A stretch of 64,000 nt of DNA from Pleurocapsa minor GSE-CHR-MK 17-07R (GTDB taxonomy: Bacteria > Chloroflexota > Anaerolineae > Aggregatilineales > Phototrophicaceae). The stretch is from positions 1 through 64,000 of the forward strand of contig JAHHHY010000005.1 in NCBI GenBank assembly GCA_019359125.1, in the 5' to 3' direction. Made by a program: the position numbers and the translations under genes. Positions 3,438-64,000 of this stretch are shown here, one piece after another (positions within the stretch are counted from its first letter, which is position 1; every line of letters starts with the position of its first letter). The notes beneath the pieces are model-generated. The model was not told the DNA's origin and did no database searches. It worked only from the letters and a program-made list of their open reading frames with translations.

Positions 3438-4058
3438 TCAGACCAGATAAATGAGCGTGAACAGGACAATCCACACCACGTCGACGAAGTGCCAGTACAG
3501 GCCGAACACTTCCACGCCGAGGTAGTTTGTGCTGCTGTATTTGCCATTACGCGCGCGCCACATCACCCAGACAGCCCAGATGACGCCAATCAGCACGTGC
3601 ACACCGTGGAAAGCGGTCGGCGCATAAAAGCGCATGCCGAACTGCCCGCTTTGCAGCGTGATGCCTTCCGCGCCCAGCGTGTTGTATTCCACCCACTGAA
3701 GCAGCAGGAAGATGGTGCCCATCACGGCCGTCAGGCCGATCCAGCGCACCAGGCCAGACACGTTGCCACGCTGAATTTCGCGCAGGCCCATCACCATCGC
3801 CCACGAGCTGGTCAGCAGGATGAAGGTGTTCAGTGCCACCAGCAGCACGCCCGCCTTCTCGTGGACTTCCTTCACCACTTCCGGGTGATCGATGCGAAAC
3901 ACCACAAACGTGGCGATCAGCACCGTGAACAGCACCACTTCGCTGGCCAGGTACAGCCACCAGCCCAGCTTGAAATTCTCGACGCGCAGGGCTTCATGCT
4001 TGGCATGAGCATCAGCCGCGCTGTGTCCGTGCGATTTTTCCAGAGATACTTCGGTCAT
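3438..4058 (-). CDS. ctaE: Cytochrome c oxidase subunit III
   Basis: A 206-residue subunit III of the short five-helix type found in caa3 oxidases. Family landmarks are the first helix with LGWWLYLASEVVLFTVL, the FYAPTAFHGVHVLIG segment and the C-terminal YWHFVDVVWIVLFTLIYLV helix. Subunit III stabilises the CtaD core and its proton uptake. The gene is tightly packed, 6 bp after the unknown 437-residue membrane protein and 11 bp before ctaF, so translation is probably coupled. The N-terminus is His-rich (SHGHSAADAHAKH) before the first helix. Confidence 0.93.
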   Translation of the reverse strand: MTEVSLEKSHGHSAADAHAKHEALRVENFKLGWWLYLASEVVLFTVLIATFVVFRIDHPEVVKEVHEKAGVLLVALNTFILLTSSWAMVMGLREIQRGNVSGLVRWIGLTAVMGTIFLLLQWVEYNTLGAEGITLQSGQFGMRFYAPTAFHGVHVLIGVIWAVWVMWRARNGKYSSTNYLGVEVFGLYWHFVDVVWIVLFTLIYLV

Positions 4059-4064
4059 CGCTTG

Positions 4065-5378
4065 TTATCCCTTCTGGAACAGGAATTTCGGAATCCAACG
4101 CAGCAGGCGCACCATCAGGCCGGCAAAAATACCCAGCAGGCCCAGCAGCCAGTTCAGGCGATACAGCAGCGCGGTAATCAGCACCACATTGGCGATCGCC
4201 AGCACCGTCTTGGTCGGCTCGGACGGCAGGATCAGGCCGATGGCCGCGTACCAGAACACCGCGTACAACACGGCGGCCGTGGCGCAGTATTTGGCCAGCG
4301 TCTTCATGCGGCTGTCCGCGCGGAAGACCATCGCCGGGGCGGTCAGCGCAGCAACCTGGCCGATGATTTCAATCACCCCCGCGAAGAACGGGTCGATGTA
4401 CATGTTCGAAACATCGCGGAACCAGCTGGCCCCCAGGCTGATGACGACATAGGCCGCCAGCGCCGTGATGGCATACTTCAGCACCGCGTCAAACGGGCGC
4501 TCTTCCGCCGGGATAATCTCGATGAACAGCAGCACGCCCGCGCCGATGAACAGCAGCGAAAGCAGCGGCCAGATATCGGCCAGCGCGGTATTCAGGCCAA
4601 ACAGCGCCAGCGCCGGGAAGTGCACGAAGTAAATCAGCGCAGCAATCACCAGCCAGAAGGCGAAGCGCGGCGGCAGCGGGATATTGCGCGGCTGACGCGG
4701 CGCGGCAGTGGCAGCAGGCGGGGCAGCGACGAGGGCATCGCCCGCGCCAGACGTCAGCGCAGCGACAGCGGCATTGCCACTGCCCAGCGCCGGGCCAGCC
4801 GCCGCAGCTTTGGCTTCCAGCTGCGCGACCTTCAGGCCGCGGTCATAGTTGAAGACCAGCATCGCCAGGCCACCGGCAATCAGCCCCAGCGACAGCAGCA
4901 CAAACGCCACAAACAGCAGGAAAATTACAAACTGGCTGAGGTAAAGCGTCTCACCGGCGATCGTCAGCTCAAAAAAGCCAACCATCTTCGTCGACGAGTT
5001 GGGGTCACCGCTGATCGTCAGCGACGGGCCCAGCACTGCCGCGGCGAAGATCAGCAGGATCATGCCCAGCAGCAGGCCACCGATCTGCCAGACCGTGCTG
5101 GTGAGGATGTACGAAGGCTCTTTGGCCTTTTCCTGCAGTTCAGCATGAATCTTTTCAATTTCAGGGCCTTCACCGTGGGCGCTCAGCTTAAAGTTGAACG
5201 CGCCGATGCCCCAGACAAAGAACGCCGCGCTCAGGAACATGCTGAAGATGATCCCGACGCCGGAGTCCCAGATGGGATCCATCGACTGAAGTGCCCGGAT
5301 GACCGTTACAAGCAGTGAGCCGGTCAGGAATCCGAGGATTCCCATCAGTGTGGCTCTGCCAAGACCCGGTTGTGCCAT
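4065..5378 (-). CDS. Polytopic membrane protein of unknown function inside the oxidase cluster
   Basis: This 437-residue product has about ten hydrophobic segments: four in the first 185 residues and the rest after residue 240. Between them lies a soluble Ala/Pro-rich linker (about 190-240). I do not recognise a characterised family. No haem, copper or quinone motif is visible, and histidines are scarce, so a redox role is unlikely. It lies between the divergent subunit III gene and ctaE, in the same direction and 6 bp from ctaE, so a role in assembling or stabilising the oxidase is the simplest inference. It starts ATG at 5378, with a purine-rich GGGAGG on the minus strand just upstream. Confidence 0.8.
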   Translation of the reverse strand: MAQPGLGRATLMGILGFLTGSLLVTVIRALQSMDPIWDSGVGIIFSMFLSAAFFVWGIGAFNFKLSAHGEGPEIEKIHAELQEKAKEPSYILTSTVWQIGGLLLGMILLIFAAAVLGPSLTISGDPNSSTKMVGFFELTIAGETLYLSQFVIFLLFVAFVLLSLGLIAGGLAMLVFNYDRGLKVAQLEAKAAAAGPALGSGNAAVAALTSGAGDALVAAPPAATAAPRQPRNIPLPPRFAFWLVIAALIYFVHFPALALFGLNTALADIWPLLSLLFIGAGVLLFIEIIPAEERPFDAVLKYAITALAAYVVISLGASWFRDVSNMYIDPFFAGVIEIIGQVAALTAPAMVFRADSRMKTLAKYCATAAVLYAVFWYAAIGLILPSEPTKTVLAIANVVLITALLYRLNWLLGLLGIFAGLMVRLLRWIPKFLFQKG

Positions 5379-6168: not shown

Positions 6169-7890
6169 CTAGTCGCCAGCGGGTGACGATGAAGGCTTCA
6201 ATGCCCGGGCCGGTTCTTCTTCCAGATTCGGCCACGACTTGCCCAGCTCGGCCTCCTGCGCCTCCAGATAGCGGTAAGCCGCTTCGGTGCCATAGCCATA
6301 CGGATTCTTGTACGGCACGGGATCGCCATGGAAGTTGTGCGCCGGCGGCGGCGACGAGGTCGCCCATTCCAGCGTCAGCGCGCGCCACGGGTTCGGGCCG
6401 GCCTGCTTGCGCTTGATCAGGCTGTAGACCATGTTGTAGAGCAGGATGAAGGTGCTGATGCCCAGCACGAAGCTGGCAAAGCTGACGATGCTGTTCAGCG
6501 TCTGGAATTCCGGCGCATACACGGCCACACGGCGCGGCATACCCAGCATACCCAGCAGGTGCATCGGGAAGAACGTGAAGAAGAACGACACGTACGTGAG
6601 CCAGAAGTGCCACTTGCCCATGCTCTCGTTGAGCAGGGTGCCGGTCACTTTCGGCCACCAGTGATAGATACCGGCGTAGATGGCCAGCACCGATCCGCCG
6701 TACAGCACGAAGTGGAAATGGCTGACGACGAAGTAAGTGTCGTGCACGTGCAGGTCAAACGGCACCGCCGCCAGCATGACGCCGCTGATGCCGCCGATCA
6801 CGAACATCGACAGGAAGCCGAGGCCGAACAGCATCGCGCTGTTAAAACGAATCTTGCCGCCCCAGATCGTGCCGATCCAGCTGAAAATCTTGATGCCGGT
6901 GGGCACCGCGATAATCATCGAGGTGACCATGAACGGGATACGCAGCGACGGGGTGAGGCTGGTGAACATGTGATGCGCCCACACCGTGAAGCCCACCAGA
7001 GCAATCGCCATGCTGGAGAGCGCGATGGCGCGATAGCCAAACACGTTCTTGCGGGCATGCACCGAGAGCACTTCGCTGAGCATGCCGAAGCCGGGCAGCA
7101 CCATGATATACACGGCCGGGTGGCTGTAGAACCAGAACACGTTCTGCCACAGCAGCACGTCACCGCCCTGCGCGGGATTGAAGAACGCCGTGCCGGCCAC
7201 GCGGTCCAGAATCAGCAGGGTCAGGCCGCCCGCCAGGAATGGCGTCGCCATGACGATGATGATCGAGGTCGCCAGCATCGCCCACACGAACAGCGGCATC
7301 TGGAAGTAGCCCATGCCCTCGGGACGCATGTTGCGGATGGTGACGATGAAGTTGAGCGCGCCCAGGATCGACGACGCACCCAGCAGATGGATGGCAATGG
7401 CCCACATCGTCTGGCCGTCGCCATCGCTGAACATCGTGCTCAGCGGCGGATAAGCGGTCCAGCCAGCCTGCGCCTGCCCGGCGAAGTAGCCGAGGATCAT
7501 CAGCACGCCTGCGGGCGGAATCAGCCAGAAGGCGAACGCGTTCAGCCACGGGAAGGCCATGTCTTTCGCGCCCAGCATCAGCGGCACGAGATAGTTGCCA
7601 AAACCGGCCATCATCGGGATGATCCACAGGAAGATCATGACCGTGCCGTGCATGGTGAAAAACTGGTTGTAGGCGGTGCCATCGGCAGCGACGTCCAGCG
7701 CGGGTGTCAGCAGCTCCCAGCGGATAGCCATCGCCAGAGCGCCGCCGATGATGAAGAAGAACAGCGCCGTCACGGCATACTGCACGCCGATAATTTTGTG
7801 GTCGACACTCCACTTCAGGTAGTCCCCGATGCGGAGCTTACCTTCTTCACTGACCTGTATGCCCGGCAGAGGGGCGGAAATAGTAGCCAT
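6169..7890 (-). CDS. ctaD: Cytochrome c oxidase subunit I, A2 type
   Basis: The catalytic subunit of a haem-copper oxidase, 573 residues with twelve core helices. Haem ligands are H81 and H393 (haem a) and H391 (haem a3). Copper B is bound by H257, H306 and H307, with Y261 in the His-Tyr cross-link position. D110 and N117 of the D-channel entrance are present. The motif is YSHPAVY rather than GHPEVY, so the glutamate of A1 oxidases is missing and the Tyr-Ser pair typical of A2 oxidases (Thermus or Rhodothermus caa3) takes its place. It follows ctaC by 33 bp and has AGGA upstream of its ATG. Confidence 0.97.
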   Translation of the reverse strand: MATISAPLPGIQVSEEGKLRIGDYLKWSVDHKIIGVQYAVTALFFFIIGGALAMAIRWELLTPALDVAADGTAYNQFFTMHGTVMIFLWIIPMMAGFGNYLVPLMLGAKDMAFPWLNAFAFWLIPPAGVLMILGYFAGQAQAGWTAYPPLSTMFSDGDGQTMWAIAIHLLGASSILGALNFIVTIRNMRPEGMGYFQMPLFVWAMLATSIIIVMATPFLAGGLTLLILDRVAGTAFFNPAQGGDVLLWQNVFWFYSHPAVYIMVLPGFGMLSEVLSVHARKNVFGYRAIALSSMAIALVGFTVWAHHMFTSLTPSLRIPFMVTSMIIAVPTGIKIFSWIGTIWGGKIRFNSAMLFGLGFLSMFVIGGISGVMLAAVPFDLHVHDTYFVVSHFHFVLYGGSVLAIYAGIYHWWPKVTGTLLNESMGKWHFWLTYVSFFFTFFPMHLLGMLGMPRRVAVYAPEFQTLNSIVSFASFVLGISTFILLYNMVYSLIKRKQAGPNPWRALTLEWATSSPPPAHNFHGDPVPYKNPYGYGTEAAYRYLEAQEAELGKSWPNLEEEPARALKPSSSPAGD

Positions 7891-58425: not shown

Positions 58426-59196
58426 ATGAAAAGACAGCCCGTCATCATCGTCGTGCTTATCGTCCTGGTGGCTTCAATTGTCCTGATCCTGTTGAACAGC
58501 ACCTCCTACATCAGCCTGAGCGGCACCGGCCAGTTGGACGTGGTCACCACGGCAGAGGCAGACGCGCCTACTGACATGCCCACCGAAGCGCCCACCGACG
58601 TACCGGCCACGGATGCGCCTACGGATGTACCGGCCACCGATGTCCCGACAGACGCTCCTGCGACCGACGCGCCGACTGAAGCACCGACGGACGTTCCCAC
58701 TGAAGTTCCGGCCACCGATGTGCCGACTGAGGTTCCGGCCACCGAAGCACCGACCGACGTGCCGCCGACGGATGTCCCCACCGAAGCGCCAACCGACGTG
58801 CCGGCAACCGCTACGCCGGCTCCGCGGACGATGATTCCCGAGGTCTCGCTGACGCCAGCCACGGCCACCAATACCCCGACGCGCACGCCGACGGTCACGC
58901 GCACCCCCACCCCCACGGTGGCCCCGGCCTCGGTCGGTGTGCAGCTCGTGTGCGATCGCCCGACGCCGTTTAACGTGCTGCGCCGCCTGAGCATCGAAGT
59001 CACGAACACCGGCGGGACGCGCCTGTCGGGCGTGCAGGTGCGCTGGACCGCCTCGATTGGCGGCGGTGGCGTGGCTTTCATCAACCTGAACCCCGGGCAG
59101 AGCACGTCCATTCGCGCGACGCTGGCCGCGGCCAATATCAGCGTGGTCGTGTCTGGCGGCGGACTGGAAAGCGTCACACAGACGACGTTCTGCTAA
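58426..59196 (+). CDS. Surface protein with Thr/Pro/Asp-rich repeat stalk
   Basis: 256 residues. An N-terminal helix (7-24: VIIVVLIVLVASIVLILL) anchors or exports the protein. Residues 45-128 are a degenerate repeat of the hexamer type DVPATD/APTDVP/TEVPAT, at DNA level a run of 18-base-like units between 58555 and 58815. After a TPT-rich bridge, residues 165-256 form a beta-rich domain (VGVQLVCDRPTPFNVLRRLSIEVTN, in part) with cysteines at 171 and 256. It could be a wall-spanning stalk with a small outer head. Partner unknown. The repeats are prone to length change. Confidence 0.8.
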   Translation: MKRQPVIIVVLIVLVASIVLILLNSTSYISLSGTGQLDVVTTAEADAPTDMPTEAPTDVPATDAPTDVPATDVPTDAPATDAPTEAPTDVPTEVPATDVPTEVPATEAPTDVPPTDVPTEAPTDVPATATPAPRTMIPEVSLTPATATNTPTRTPTVTRTPTPTVAPASVGVQLVCDRPTPFNVLRRLSIEVTNTGGTRLSGVQVRWTASIGGGGVAFINLNPGQSTSIRATLAAANISVVVSGGGLESVTQTTFC

Positions 59197-59349: not shown

Positions 59350-60621
59350 ATGCAGGCGCATTCGCTCGATCACCTTTCGCCCGTCTGGTCCCACCTGACC
59401 ACCATGCAGCCGGTGCGCGGTGAGGGCGCCTATCTGTATGATGGCGATGGCACGCGTTACCTCGACTTCACCAGCGGCATCGGCGTGACCAATACCGGTC
59501 ACAGCCACCCGCATGTGGTGAAGGCGATCCAGGAACAGGCGGCCAACCTGCTGCATGGTCAGATCAATATCGTGATTCCGCCGTCGGTGGCGCGCCTCAG
59601 CCACATGCTGGACGCCATCACCCCGTCGGCTATCGACTGCTTCTTCTTCTCCAACAGCGGCGCCGAGGCCACCGAAGGCGCGGTCAAACTGGCGCGCCAG
59701 GCCACCAAACGCCAGAACATCATCGTGTTTCAGGGCAGCTTCCACGGGCGCACCGCGCAGACGATGGCCATGACCACCAGCAAGACGGTCTATCGCGCTG
59801 GCTATCAGCCACTGCCGGGCGGCATCTTCGTCGCGCCGTTCCCGTACAGCTTCTACTATGGCTGGGACGAGGAAAAGACGGTCGACTGGTGCATCGAACA
59901 GCTGCACCTGCTGCTGAAAAGCCAGACCGCGCCGGAGGAAACGGCCGCCATCTTCATCGAGCCGGTGCTGGGCGAGGGCGGCTACGTGGCCGCGCCGGTC
60001 CGCTTCCTGCAGGCGCTGCGCGAGATCTGCACGCAGCATGGCATCATGCTCGTGATTGACGAGGTGCAGACGGGCTTCGGGCGCACGGGCAAAATGTTCG
60101 CCATCGAGTATGCCGACGTGCAGCCGGACATCCTGGTGATGGCCAAGGGGCTGGGCAGCGGCGTGCCCATCAGCGCGGTCGGCTCGAGCAAAGAATTCAT
60201 GTCACGCTGGACGACCGGCAGCCACGGCGGCACCTATGGCGGCAACGCGCTGGCGGCAGCGGCGGCCTGCGCGACCATCGAAGTCATGCAGGGCGAAGAC
60301 CTGCCCGGCAACGCGGCCCGCATGGGCGCCCAGCTGATGGACGGACTGAAGCAGATTCAGGCGGAATTCCCGGTCATCGGCGAGGTGCGCGGGAAAGGCC
60401 TGATGATCGGCATCGAGTTTGGCCGCACGGGCGCGCCCAACAAGGACGCCGCCAAAGTCCTGCAAAAGAAGGCGATGGCACACAACCTGCTGCTGCTGAC
60501 CTGCGGCAGCTACGAAAATACCATCCGCCTGATTCCCCCGCTGGTGATCAGCGAGGCGCAGGTGAACGACGCGCTGGGCATCCTGGCCGAAAGCGCGGCG
60601 TATGCGCAGGGTTATGCGTGA
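59350..60621 (+). CDS. gabT: Class III PLP aminotransferase, 4-aminobutyrate type
   Basis: About 423 residues. Class III landmarks are YLDFTSGIGVTNTGHSHP, FFFSNSGAEATEGAVKLAR (PLP phosphate), FHGRT, IEPVLGEGGY, LVIDEVQTGFGRTG and the PLP lysine in VMAKGLGSGVP. The pattern fits 4-aminobutyrate or related omega-aminotransferases, which transfer the amino group to 2-oxoglutarate or pyruvate. Starts at 59338 and 59350 are possible, and GGATGA fits the second. The last 120 bp (60502-60621), coding CGSYENTIRLIPPLVISEAQ onward, recur downstream at 63131-63250 and in part at 62284-62338. Polyamine or amino-acid catabolism is a likely role. Confidence 0.92.
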   Translation: MQAHSLDHLSPVWSHLTTMQPVRGEGAYLYDGDGTRYLDFTSGIGVTNTGHSHPHVVKAIQEQAANLLHGQINIVIPPSVARLSHMLDAITPSAIDCFFFSNSGAEATEGAVKLARQATKRQNIIVFQGSFHGRTAQTMAMTTSKTVYRAGYQPLPGGIFVAPFPYSFYYGWDEEKTVDWCIEQLHLLLKSQTAPEETAAIFIEPVLGEGGYVAAPVRFLQALREICTQHGIMLVIDEVQTGFGRTGKMFAIEYADVQPDILVMAKGLGSGVPISAVGSSKEFMSRWTTGSHGGTYGGNALAAAAACATIEVMQGEDLPGNAARMGAQLMDGLKQIQAEFPVIGEVRGKGLMIGIEFGRTGAPNKDAAKVLQKKAMAHNLLLLTCGSYENTIRLIPPLVISEAQVNDALGILAESAAYAQGYA

Positions 60622-60635
60622 GGGAGCGTCCTTCT

Positions 60636-62270
60636 ATGCGTCGAGCACTATTCGCGGTGATGACCTGGCTGTGTTTGAGTCTGCCCGCCTTCGCACAGGA
60701 TGCCCTGCCCGACCCAAATTGCCCTGACGCACCCGCGCCGCGTCTGGTGATCGGTGAGCGGGGACGTGTTTCCTCCGGCCAGTCCAATAACATACGCGAT
60801 CAGGCGGGGCTGAGCGGCGCGCGCATTGGCCAGATCCCCGGCGAACAGGAGTTTGCGGTGCTGGAAGGCCCCGTTTGCCTGGATGGTTTCAACTGGTGGC
60901 GCGTCGATTACAACGGCCTGATCGGCTGGATGGTCGAAGGACAGGGGAACACCTATTGGACAAGTCCGGTCGTGCTCGACGCGACTGTCGCCGTGATTGA
61001 TAACCCCTATCTGACGCCGGAGCACGCTGTCGCCAATCAGCTGGTAACCGGTGCCCAGGTTCGGGTGCAGACAGCCGATGGCACCGCGCTGGCGCTTTCT
61101 GCTGCCCCTGGCGCGGCCGCGGGATCGGACGCACTGGAAGACGGGGCGACGGTAACGCTGCTGGAAGGCGCGGGCGGTTGGTGGCGTGTCGAGGCCGAAG
61201 ACGGCCTCACCGGCTGGCTGCCGGAAGGCATGATGACCGGAAATCCGAGCCGTTTCCTGCCGATTATCGCGCCGCTGTGCCCCCACACGGAGAATCGACT
61301 CGCCTTCATCGTCGATGACGGCCAGACGGGGGAGAATCTCTACACGATCGGGGACGATGCCCGCCGCCTGTGCAACCTCACCTACGGCGTGCTGTCGGAC
61401 TACGAGTCCTTTGACTGGTCGCCGGATGGGCGTGCGCTCGTTTTCAGCGCGTCGCTCACGGGTGGCAATCCATGTCAGGCGCAGGCCTGCCCCAGTGCCG
61501 TGTACACCATCAGCGTCGATGGGCGCGACCTGCGCCGTTTGGGGGACGGCGCTGGCATCAGCAATGTCGCCTGGTCGCCGAATGGGACACAAATCGCTTT
61601 CTTTCAGCAGGGCGACGCGGCGAATACCAGCGACCTGCGCGTGATCAGCGCCGACGGCTCGGCTGACGTTCTCGTGCCGATGCCTGACGAGATCCTGTAC
61701 TCGCTGGTGCGCTGGTCGCCAGACGGGACGCACATCGCCATGGTCGCCACTATCGACCCGGCGGGCGGTTCCGATTTCCACCAGGTCATCATGCGGGTCG
61801 CGCTGGAGAGCGGCGCGGTTGAGACGCTTTTCACCTCAGACTGGCGGGTGCAAAGCCTGGACTGGTCGCCCGATGGGCAATCGCTGGCGGCGTCGGTTTA
61901 TATCGACGTTGGCCGCAACGTGCTGGCCGAAATCGACGCGGAGAGCGGCCAGTTCGAGGTGCTGTACTCGGAAGAGAATGCGGGCGCCGCGTATTCGCCC
62001 GATGGGACACAGCTGGCCTTCTGGCGCAGCGACATGCAGGCGCCGCGCTGGGTCGAGCGTCTGGACCTGGCGACGGGTGAGGTCACGCGGCTGGCGACGC
62101 TGCCGGGCGTCAACGGGCGCGGCGCGAGCTGGACAGCGGACAGCGCGTATGTGCTGGTCGATTCGGGCGGTGTGCTGCGTATCGATGCAGCAACCGGCGA
62201 ACTGCGCTCGCTGTTCCTCGGCGCGGTGGGGCTTGGCCAGCGTGCGATCCAGGTTCAGCCTGCGGGGTGA
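60636..62270 (+). CDS. Secreted protein with two SH3-like domains and a TolB/WD40 beta-propeller
   Basis: 544 residues. Signal peptide 1-20. Two SH3b-like domains (about 41-110 with NIRDQAGLSGARIGQIPG and GLIGWMVEG; about 140-200 with WWRVEAEDGLTGWLPEG). Residues 215-544 form a TolB-like propeller with repeated SPDG or SPNG signatures: FDWSPDGRALVFSASLTGG, VAWSPNGTQIAFFQQGD, RWSPDGTHIAMVATID, LDWSPDGQSLAASV and AYSPDGTQLAFWRSD. It is a probable envelope binding protein. The ATG at 60636 has GGGAG 9 bases upstream; a GTG at 60618 overlaps the gabT stop. It is flanked by gabT and a fragment of the gabT 3' end. Confidence 0.85.
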   Translation: MRRALFAVMTWLCLSLPAFAQDALPDPNCPDAPAPRLVIGERGRVSSGQSNNIRDQAGLSGARIGQIPGEQEFAVLEGPVCLDGFNWWRVDYNGLIGWMVEGQGNTYWTSPVVLDATVAVIDNPYLTPEHAVANQLVTGAQVRVQTADGTALALSAAPGAAAGSDALEDGATVTLLEGAGGWWRVEAEDGLTGWLPEGMMTGNPSRFLPIIAPLCPHTENRLAFIVDDGQTGENLYTIGDDARRLCNLTYGVLSDYESFDWSPDGRALVFSASLTGGNPCQAQACPSAVYTISVDGRDLRRLGDGAGISNVAWSPNGTQIAFFQQGDAANTSDLRVISADGSADVLVPMPDEILYSLVRWSPDGTHIAMVATIDPAGGSDFHQVIMRVALESGAVETLFTSDWRVQSLDWSPDGQSLAASVYIDVGRNVLAEIDAESGQFEVLYSEENAGAAYSPDGTQLAFWRSDMQAPRWVERLDLATGEVTRLATLPGVNGRGASWTADSAYVLVDSGGVLRIDAATGELRSLFLGAVGLGQRAIQVQPAG

Positions 62271-62283
62271 GGCGGGAGGGCGG

Positions 62284-62352
62284 CTGGTGATCAGCGAGGC
62301 GCAGGTGAATGACGCGCTGGGCATCCTGGCCGAAAGCGTGGTGGCATCGTGA
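62284..62352 (+). pseudogene. Partial duplicate of the gabT 3' end (copy B)
   Basis: The 55 bases at 62284-62338 are identical to part of 63151-63210 and differ from gabT at one base (AAT for AAC). They code LVISEAQVNDALGILAES in the same frame as GabT, then change to VVAS and stop at 62350-62352. After AAAGCG the flank TGGTGGCATCGTGA resembles the sequence that follows the gabT-like stop in copy C, so B looks like a deleted version of C. It has no start codon or ribosome-binding site of its own. Confidence 0.8.
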
Positions 62353-62436
62353 TCGCAGCGTTTTCGATGATAAAATGCTGATATAGCGCGTTGTCCTGCA
62401 AGGTATAACGCATAGCCGGTTGACTGGGTTACCACG

Positions 62437-62694
62437 ATGACAGACGCACCGCCTAAAACGATCAAAGATGTCGTTACCGACTTTCTCGGCTCGGCCCCAT
62501 CGCTGGCTGAGATTGCGGGATATCGCCTGCCGCAGGACCTTCAGGCACGCGCGCACTGGCTGCTGGACCGCAATCGTGCGGGCAGCCTGAGCGATGCCGA
62601 GCGTTCGGAGATGGAAGAATTCCGCCAGATTGACCATTTGCTGACGCTGGTTAAGGCCAAGGCGAACCTGAAGCTGAAGGCTCAGGCGCATTGA
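62437..62694 (+). CDS. Small helical protein paired with an HNH endonuclease gene
   Basis: 85 residues. The N-terminal half contains TIKDVVTDFLGSAPSLAEIAGYRLP, and the C-terminal half is a charged helix (LSDAERSEMEEFRQIDHLLTLV, in part) ending in KAKANLKLKAQAH. It looks like small proteins that sit directly in front of HNH nuclease genes in other bacteria, but I cannot name a family. The stop overlaps the TTG start of the nuclease (TTGA), so the two are translated together. A role as partner or antidote is possible (inference only). Confidence 0.7.
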   Translation: MTDAPPKTIKDVVTDFLGSAPSLAEIAGYRLPQDLQARAHWLLDRNRAGSLSDAERSEMEEFRQIDHLLTLVKAKANLKLKAQAH

Positions 62695-63125
62695 GCGAGA
62701 CGTACATTCCCGCCGCGCTTCGCCGCCTGGTCATCGAACGCGCTCAAGGCTGTTGTGAATACTGTCTGATGGGCGAAGGGGATCGATCCATCGACTTCGC
62801 CATCGATCATGTTATTGCCGAAAAGCACGGCGGAGAAACTGCCGAACACAACCTGTGCCTGAGTTGCTACTGGTGTAACAGCTATAAGGGCAGTGACCTG
62901 AGCTCAGTTGACTGGACTGCCGAAGGGCAAATCGTGCCACTTTTCAACCCGCGTCAGCAGTTATGGTCAGATCACTTTCGCCTGGAGGGTGCGCGCATTC
63001 AGGCGCTCACTGCTCAGGGACGCGTGACTGTGTATCTTCTGCGCCTGAATGCGGAAGAACGTTTGGAAGAGCGCGAACTGTTGTTGGCGCTTGGCAGCTA
63101 CCCATGTTCTTTGTTCAGCATATGA
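62691..63125 (+). CDS. HNH endonuclease
   Basis: 144 residues. A classic HNH core: CEYC zinc half-site, IDFAIDHVIAEKHGGETAEHN (in part) with the DH and N residues, then CLSCYWCNSYKGSD as the second zinc half-site. Such single-domain nucleases occur in mobile elements, in restriction-like systems and as free-standing genes. The start is TTG, overlapping the stop of the 85-residue gene. The C-terminal 60 residues (FNPRQQLWSDHFRLEG and on) are common in this HNH subgroup of cyanobacteria and Chloroflexota (from memory). It lies between copies B and C of the gabT 3' end. Confidence 0.88.
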   Translation: MSETYIPAALRRLVIERAQGCCEYCLMGEGDRSIDFAIDHVIAEKHGGETAEHNLCLSCYWCNSYKGSDLSSVDWTAEGQIVPLFNPRQQLWSDHFRLEGARIQALTAQGRVTVYLLRLNAEERLEERELLLALGSYPCSLFSI

Positions 63126-63130
63126 TTATT

Positions 63131-63250
63131 TGCGGCAGCTACGAAAACACCATCCGCCTGATTCCCCCGCTGGTGATCAGCGAGGCGCAGGTGAATGACG
63201 CGCTGGGCATCCTGGCCGAAAGCGCGGCTTTTGCGCAGGGTTATGCGTGA
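63131..63250 (+). pseudogene. Duplicate of the last 120 bp of gabT (copy C)
   Basis: This 120-base block matches gabT 60502-60621 with four base changes, including the stop codon, and stays in frame. It codes CGSYENTIRLIPPLVISEAQ and on to FAQGYA (F for Y). The upstream 12 bases do not match gabT, so the left boundary is sharp. It is preceded by ATGATTATT, which could by chance start a 42-residue peptide, but no ribosome-binding site is seen. It is read as a truncated gene copy or an attachment-site-like remnant. Confidence 0.85.
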
Positions 63251-63277
63251 CGGGATGTGGGGCATCGTGAAGAAATT

Positions 63278-64000
63278 TCAGGGGGATGCGATCATCATCA
63301 GCGGCGCACCATCGCCTGTCGAGATGACGTCCTGCCTACCCGTCGTGATGTCGAGTAGTCTGATTTCCAGCGGAGAATCGGATGTTGTTTCACATGTCGA
63401 CTCGAACGACGTGTAGGCAAGATGCCCGACATCGACCCACGCGATATTGCAGACTGCACCCTGTGTATGCATCTCGTGGAGTATGTCTCCGCTGCTGACA
63501 TTCACTACCACGACGTACCCTCGAATTTCGGAAGTTCGGTCCATGCCCGCCAGAGCTATGTGCACGGCATCGGGCGAGAACGCGACGACACTGAGGATGG
63601 AAGAAGCAGCGCCATTGAATCGCAGTTCCAGGACGGTTCGAAGCGCCTGAGAATGCAGTGCCAGCACGCGCCACTGCGTAAAAGTTGCTACAGCCCCACC
63701 AGACGCAGGACGTATCTCCGACGCCATGCTGACGTACACGACCTCTTCGATGATGTGTATATCGCGGATTGTGTTGTAAAAGCTGTCATCAGTGAGGGAG
63801 AGCGGGTTAAGCTCAAGGCGATTGAGGCCTGCCAGATCGGTCGAATACAGGAAGGATTGCACCTGATCCGATGTGTCGCGGCAACTGACCACGTAATAGA
63901 GCCGCGAGAACAGCGGCGACCGCGCTGAAATATCCGGATAACACACAGAATAGTATTGCAGCACATCCGTCCCAAGATCACGCTCAAGCTGTGCCCCAAT
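63278..64000 (-). CDS. Partial beta-propeller-like protein (5' end outside window)
   Basis: At least 240 residues; the frame stays open to the right edge of the window. It contains VVAFSPDAVHIALAGMD and ILSVV-type strands, VVVVNVSSGDILHEMHTQG and NIAWVDVGHLAYTSF, which point to a WD40/TolB-like propeller with drifted repeats. The bases here are clearly poorer in GC than in neighbouring genes (28 of 60 in one line against 38 of 60 in the SH3-propeller gene). It converges on copy C. Function unknown. No start can be set. Confidence 0.7.
   Translation of the reverse strand: MGAQLERDLGTDVLQYYSVCYPDISARSPLFSRLYYVVSCRDTSDQVQSFLYSTDLAGLNRLELNPLSLTDDSFYNTIRDIHIIEEVVYVSMASEIRPASGGAVATFTQWRVLALHSQALRTVLELRFNGAASSILSVVAFSPDAVHIALAGMDRTSEIRGYVVVVNVSSGDILHEMHTQGAVCNIAWVDVGHLAYTSFESTCETTSDSPLEIRLLDITTGRQDVISTGDGAPLMMIASP

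Follow-up and report, generated by a model that had tools for sequence, protein, structure and literature searches.

The primary papers on restriction-modification (RM) systems that insert with a long target duplication are reportedly those of Nobusato et al. 2000 and Furuta et al. 2010. Other texts, here represented by excerpts, describe RM systems whose insertion leaves long and variable target duplications of about 100 bp (PMC1643837, PMC3874152, PMC3154945, PMC3031569). In fungal mitochondria, an excerpt of another paper describes mORFs, where an endonuclease open reading frame (ORF) lies between the end of a gene and the displaced native copy of that end (PMC3630166). The locus discussed here belongs to a stretch of 64,000 nt from Pleurocapsa minor GSE-CHR-MK 17-07R (contig JAHHHY010000005.1); the whole of this stretch is called the window, and positions given without a locus label are window positions. 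In it, the 3' end of the gene gabT occurs three times: a gene for an SH3/propeller protein lies between the first two copies, and a small gene followed by an HNH nuclease gene lies between the second and the third. With modest confidence, this small-gene/HNH pair is read as a two-gene mobile cassette, which would insert near gene boundaries by HNH-driven break and repair and leave a long target duplication.

The repeats at gabT were first seen in a sequence-only reading, and alignment bears it out in most respects. The last 120 bp of gabT do recur at 63131-63250, in frame, with their own stop codon and four differences (60519, 60567, 60600 and 60602); when the comparison is extended to 60502-60624 and 63131-63253, 118/123 positions are equal (96%), with five differences. 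The middle copy, which that reading had described as an exact part of 55 bp at 62284-62338, exists; its exact part is 56 bp and the whole copy 59 bp (62283-62341), 98% identical to copy 3 and 97% to gabT. The two downstream copies, again as proposed, share features missing from gabT: both have AAT at the position where gabT reads AAC (60567), and both are followed by similar sequence, the 10-bp tail GGCATCGTGA being found downstream in copy 2 (62343-62352) and after the stop of copy 3 (63261-63270). The cargo named between the copies, that is, the SH3/propeller gene between copies 1 and 2 and the pair between copies 2 and 3, is supported by Pfam and profile matches (Table 1); the open frame of the SH3/propeller gene starts at 60618. 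Chance is ruled out for the gabT-end repeats (E 2.5e-54 and 5.1e-25). In the whole genome the next matches to this block, among 40 matches scored, are low-scoring pieces of 16 to 43 bp, so that the block follows no other gene there. The stretch between copies 2 and 3 (62353-63130) has a GC content of 55.5%, as against a mean of 62.5% for windows of the same length, 2.5% of which are equally low. Assigning a polarity to the differences between copies 1 and 3 by means of relatives was abandoned, as the relatives are too diverged.

Table 1. gabT, the copies of its 3' end and the genes lying between them.
Feature	Positions	Strand	Basis
gabT-like class-III aminotransferase, target gene, intact	59350..60621	+	Pfam Aminotran_3 E 3.7e-126; best relative 79% identical over nearly full length
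Copy 1 (E1), gabT 3' end in its functional place	60502..60624	+	repeat comparison
SH3/beta-propeller protein gene, between copies 1 and 2	60636..62270	+	Pfam PD40, SH3_3
Copy 2 (E2), 59-bp piece of gabT end and GGCATCGTGA tail common to copy 3	62283..62352	+	
Small gene, 85 aa, first gene of the cassette	62437..62694	+	profile match
HNH nuclease gene, 144 aa, TTG start, 4-bp overlap with small gene	62691..63125	+	Pfam HNH E 3.5e-8, above cut-off
Copy 3 (E3), displaced gabT 3' end and tail, starts 5 nt past HNH stop	63131..63270	+	

Does the pair carry such scars elsewhere? HNH genes with enough flanking sequence were examined for a direct repeat having one copy before the small gene and the other right after the HNH gene. 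Such a bracketing repeat is found at 26/135 HNH genes, or 25/133 once the duplicate records L149 and L153 are removed (L183, with two HNH genes, counts twice in this tally). At control anchors with the same geometry in the same loci it is found at 4/658, two of these in L099 (Fisher p 8e-17). In 11 of the 26 (the window, L098, L152, L154, L116, L120, L093, L172, L094, L133 and L211), the repeat coincides with the 3' end of the upstream ORF or is at most about 60 nt away from it, the upstream ORF of L154 having only 74 aa, so that it may not be a gene. These gene-end duplications span 28 to 215 bp, and seven of the 11 end no more than 2 nt from the stop codon. The displaced copy starts 0-23 nt past the HNH stop in ten of the 12 loci read closely (the window, L098, L116, L172, L094, L133, L152, L090, L089 and L120), and 72 and 92 nt past it in L093 and L211. 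As for orientation, the nearest upstream ORF of at least 100 aa is co-directional with the pair in 80/106 cases, and the downstream one in 66/116. A protein-level search for C-terminal copies (25/129) is not used as a count, since it mixes true copies with weak paralogy (18-45% identity).

A second line of evidence comes from cassettes in different surroundings and from sites where the cassette is missing. Six pairs of similar cassettes were compared for shared flanks, the flanks being about 0.6 to 4.5 kb long. In four of them neither flank aligns, namely L195/L197 (93.8% identical), L174/L175 (91.6%), L169/L172 (88.0%) and L179/L182 (86.3%), and the shared stretch stops where the HNH gene ends or at most about 40 nt from there. 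In genus g30, the insertion of genome G043 (L094) is missing from G054, where the left and right flanks adjoin with an overlap of 23 bp. In G043 the last 75 bp of the gene are present twice, the downstream copy with an internal deletion, and the cassette starts right after the stop codon. In a further genome, G049, the end of the gene is unbroken; some 20 kb off, this genome also carries an orphan unit that combines the same 75-bp end with the small gene and starts no more than 2 bases from the start of the displaced copy in G043. The second case is in genus g1, where G001, some 95% identical to G007, is without the cassette found in G007 (L089). Here the duplicated stretch of about 50 bp in G007 is single at the same place in G001, and both genomes carry an older copy further upstream; the right-hand match of G001 to G007 runs only 83 bp before other differences. 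A long, variable direct duplication flanking the insert (25/133) and single at the insert-free site (G043/G054 and G007/G001) is what emerges from these comparisons, which together point to mobility, duplication and two insert-free sites. The orphan unit itself (L286, about 6866-7210; G049:C12:49865-50209) has no detectable HNH gene, and its stretch is rearranged, with parts inverted relative to G043.

How might such a cassette move? It would be a segment of about 0.7-0.85 kb without a transposase or integrase gene, inserting near gene boundaries, with the clearest cases directly after the stop codon of a gene in the same orientation. The HNH nuclease, aided by the small protein, would break or nick the gene end, and repair would then copy the cassette into the broken end. 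What would stay behind is a long direct target duplication, with the displaced gene end close after the HNH stop; because the insertion duplicates target DNA, the host gene would stay whole. At gabT, two events can be pictured: first, the cassette would have landed behind gabT, giving rise to copies 2 and 3; in the second, repair would have put a gabT end (copy 1) and the SH3/propeller gene ahead of the cassette, shortening copy 2. Break and repair started by the HNH protein is judged the most likely course, the second copy being either made on the spot or derived from a donor. A bolder proposal is put forward tentatively: such pairs may be undescribed, widespread, minimal selfish elements, in which a nuclease and a small targeting partner insert behind stop codons and, by duplicating the gene end, keep the host gene intact; their repeated breaks would open gene 3' ends to other modules, such as propeller genes, vapBC and GIY-YIG genes.

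Cases of nested cargo are found as well. The layout of end 1, cargo, end 2, small gene, HNH gene and end 3 is found in the window, in L120 and in L089. In L120 the cargo is a 274-aa ORF behind a gene of 1122 aa, with ends 1 and 2 matching over 147 bp at 94.6%; in L089 the cargo, a PIN-domain gene taken for vapBC, follows a glycoside hydrolase gene. Three g30 species differ in what follows one cellulase-family gene: G043 has the pair only; G054 has a gene for a LEM-3 GIY-YIG protein and an extra small gene ahead of the pair; and G059 carries two genes in reverse orientation, a repeat of the gene end (75 bp, 85%) and a gene for a propeller protein. Outer and inner repeats upstream of the pair are weakly enriched (17/126 vs 14/256 controls). 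This general enrichment is not relied on; many of the counted repeats come from repeat-rich loci, and the claim of nesting therefore rests on the three clean cases. Beside these, in L110 (3032-4081) a cellulase-family gene and a complete pair are separated by a LEM-3-like GIY-YIG gene together with a small gene that lacks its HNH gene. The LEM-3 GIY-YIG gene was considered as a second test family and dropped, being present in only 2/61 genomes.

The common element of the scarred HNH loci is the pair itself. From 21 members, the majority of which belong to these same loci, a profile of the small protein was built; it matches the ORF directly before 129/139 non-redundant HNH genes, the one of the window included. 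Matches to the HNH protein are patchy: 51/61 genomes have at least one at E 1e-3 or better, the window's own genome a single one and others as many as 9; many of these are weak hits on other HNH proteins. A scan of contigs of GTDB species for the HNH gene gave at least 80 loci, and nine phyla are labelled among the rows of the HNH tree. Over the 65 labelled rows of this tree, the phylum changes at least 16 times, the minimum possible being 8; the tree is built on few columns, with mostly weak forks. The structural model of the HNH protein reaches a predicted local distance difference test (pLDDT) score of 93.5, and its top solved fold is PtuB of retron Ec78 (Foldseek E 1.8e-3, probability 1.00, template modelling (TM) score 0.58); the HNH protein also has PADLOC profile matches. 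The small protein gives a helical model with a pLDDT of 80, has no Pfam family and finds no match at E 1 or better in a fold search of the PDB. Carriage by phages was rejected, as a search of 50,697 phage records with the HNH protein at E 1e-5 returned no match. Tandem HNH genes are seen in L180, L183 and L204, the last with three HNH matches in a row, and Pseudanabaena holds a second, diverged HNH type with 36-39% identity to that of the window.

The sequence-only reading had gone further and taken the end of gabT for an insertion hotspot with nested modules. Its picture of modules nested at the 3' end of a gene, where a nuclease is involved and no integrase is close by, stands; its restriction to gabT does not. 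All 61 genomes searched, the window's own included, have an aminotransferase match, and the gabT loci of 19 relatives with better matches were taken. In 15 of these loci the sequence extends 2 kb or more beyond the gene; it is shorter in L042, L049 and L051, and L055 is without the end of the gene. By tblastn, the small gene, the HNH gene and a separate gabT end are absent from all 19, and the propeller gene gives a single weak match (26%, in L054). When the last 400 bp of each relative's gabT were compared with up to 6 kb behind it, no copy of the gene end was found; L043 and L047 gave only matches of 23-30 bp, to the middle of those 400 bp. The gabT arrangement is thus special to its own genome among those compared, since the loci of the 19 relatives lack the pair and a second gabT end. 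A hotspot peculiar to gabT, recurring downstream of this gene in relatives, was accordingly rejected (0/19), and because the pair carries such scars behind many genes, the feature is not specific to gabT. Both the empty sites and the differing cargo that the idea had called for exist at other places, the former at the two insertions described above, the latter behind the g30 cellulase-family gene. No integrase was recognised among the proteins scanned around the pair, in a scan outside which some ORFs lay, in agreement with the same reading.

Two neighbours of the locus may be added here. Just before gabT, 58426-59196 encodes a proline/threonine-rich protein built of imperfect 27-bp repeats. 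Directly after copy 3, 63278-64000 holds a reversed propeller-like gene with weak Pfam matches only and a GC content of 55.5%, which is open at the end of the window.

Several points weigh against a mobile cassette driven by its nuclease. HNH cleavage is putative, and movement of the cassette is read from sequence comparison. A bracketing repeat is not detectable at 108/133 HNH genes, for which decay or another route could be the explanation. Among the 26 bracketed genes, seven are of the repeat-rich Pseudanabaena type, L204 is a tandem element and L213 a local tract of repeats. The repeat is not always an upstream gene end, being the start of the downstream gene in L091 and the leader and start of the downstream ORF in L090. 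The two remaining pairs of similar cassettes show no movement because their flanks are shared: L162/L165 aligns on both sides, and L180/L186, dropped as a pair in different surroundings, aligns upstream over about 2 kb at 79%.

A further point comes from vapBC. As a wider control, 82 vapC loci were taken from the same genomes as the best of the match list, the presence of an HNH gene being no criterion. The scar is found at four of them (L331, L348, L314 and L376), with no HNH gene within the stretch taken. In L331, vapBC is bracketed by 84 bp from the end of the upstream gene, the copies being 98.8% identical; in L314, which is the G001 locus, the repeat is the end of the upstream gene; in L348 it also spans the start of an antitoxin-like gene; and L376 is a weak case, with 58 bp at 72%. 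This rate is above that of the control anchors (p 0.007) and below that of the HNH genes (25/133 vs 4/82, p 0.004). As vapBC shows the scar, insertion of this kind is not confined to the HNH pair, and the claim for the HNH protein as driver is weakened accordingly; the nuclease may not be needed for insertion. Is it then the driver or a passenger? Neither role is proven, and the vapBC scars would speak against the driver.

Another question is where the second copy comes from. If it is made on the spot, the two copies are identical at first; if it is brought by a donor, they should show differences like those between two working genes. A donor would supply the cassette together with a foreign 3' end, and homologous recombination would make a chimeric gene, with the native end left downstream, an explanation considered somewhat unlikely. 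The codon positions of the differences were counted in 13 gene-end pairs, three of which (L190, L174 and L167) are outside the 26 bracketed genes. Third positions account for 72/136 differences, with an expectation of 0.476 for on-the-spot duplication with one constrained copy under a simple assumption (p 0.12), so that over the 13 loci no excess beyond this expectation appears. In seven of these loci, chosen after the fact, the count is 26/36, which suits a donor-derived end; L093 has 10/13, while L172 (4/11), L133 (2/7) and L167 (3/10) are without clear excess. As to whether the upstream copy is foreign and the downstream one native, the codon-position counts are mixed and the distance tables short. 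In L156, what precedes the cassette is just the final 289 bp of a gene that in L155, where it encodes 803 aa, also stands before the cassette, and this lends the donor some support; the fungal precedent, as far as the excerpt of PMC3630166 goes, is on the same side. On the other side, one base is common to the two G007 copies and is found neither in G001 nor in the older copies, a pattern in keeping with on-the-spot duplication.

In a further explanation, thought unlikely, the pair would be a passive addiction module, with an antitoxin-like small protein and a toxin-like HNH protein, inserted by host recombination in which the HNH protein has no part and which would leave a long target duplication, as has been proposed for RM systems. 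The small upstream gene favours it, as the gene order and the 4-bp overlap resemble toxin-antitoxin modules, and so do the N-terminal extensions present in cyanobacterial homologs. The vapBC scars at L331, L348 and L314, and weakly at L376, are also in its favor, as are the long variable target duplications in print for RM systems (excerpts of PMC3874152 and PMC1643837). Two results oppose it: the scar is about four times commoner at HNH than at vapC genes, and none of 21 small proteins scanned in Pfam and NCBIfam matches an antitoxin family.

Could the repeats have arisen independently of the cassette? In general, direct repeats of coding ends can come from slippage or unequal crossing over, and the gabT end might have been duplicated in tandem by unequal recombination, the cassette and the SH3/propeller gene landing independently; this is very improbable and already disfavored by the tight placing of the displaced copy (5 nt past the HNH stop here and 0-23 nt in 10/12 loci) and by the rarity of such repeats at control positions of the same loci (4/658). 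Least probable of all is the remnant of an integrase-type element with the gene 3' end as its attachment site, for which gene-end repeats are generally typical and near whose kind of enzyme, an annotated site-specific integrase, the pair lies on some cyanobacterial plasmids, as against bracketing sequences that differ between loci in length and sequence, the absence of a recombinase gene inside the insert in the two filled/empty pairs, and relatives of two plasmid integrases, to which the search was limited, in only 1/141 loci (L175). Integrase carriage as a general rule was rejected on this last count. On the plasmids, the pair is part of a larger shared stretch with the integrase (L303/L304, 3624-7231; L301/L302, about 3482-4800), 97.5% and 96.9% identical, respectively, between two plasmids of one strain.

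With HNH-started break and repair as the preferred course, the pair can be set beside the systems already described. No paper on the small-gene/HNH pair or its scars was found in the literature, judged by search results alone. If the preferred course is right, the pair would allow a direct test of how small modules come to lie in bacterial chromosomes when no transposase is at work, a question that has been open since the long target duplications of RM systems were reported. Pieces of gene 3' ends seen in genomes of Chloroflexota and cyanobacteria would also find their explanation, and the nuclease would be one that may naturally serve to insert behind genes without harm.

Three kinds of system can be set apart first. 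Unlike a classical DNA transposon, the cassette has no enriched inverted repeats at its ends; inverted matches of at least 12 nt between the ends occur in 11/132 cases and in 13/132 controls. PtuB of Septu and of retron Ec78 resembles the HNH protein in fold and PADLOC profile; unlike Septu, the pair is without a PtuA-like ATPase gene, its partner being an 85-aa protein with no such match, and it is not a Septu system. The free-standing homing endonucleases of T4-like phages, known for intronless homing, are like the pair in that they are stand-alone HNH genes between host genes, according to the part of PMC2988022 consulted; they differ in that duplication goes unmentioned in the main text of that paper (0 occurrences of 'duplicat') and in that the HNH protein of the window has no counterpart in the phage records searched.

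There remain the two systems mentioned at the outset. Like the pair, RM systems, as excerpted, are small selfish gene sets with no known mobile element and with long variable duplications, found by comparing related genomes. They differ in composition and setting: the pair joins a small gene to an HNH gene without a methyltransferase gene, often sits just behind a stop codon and reaches nine labelled phyla. The fungal mORFs, in the excerpt of their description, share with the pair the order of host gene end, nuclease ORF and displaced end downstream, seen here in the window and 10 further loci; they differ from it in that the pair resides in bacterial chromosomes, has an HNH rather than a LAGLIDADG or GIY-YIG nuclease and has a conserved small partner, and a foreign donor end is unproven here. 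As far as the compared sequences indicate, the pair would thus leave a known kind of scar and appears to be new as a module, in its preference for gene ends and in its wide spread; it is not an RM system, and homing is unproven. Its pattern would tie the duplications of the RM type to the gene-end duplications of mitochondrial endonuclease ORFs.

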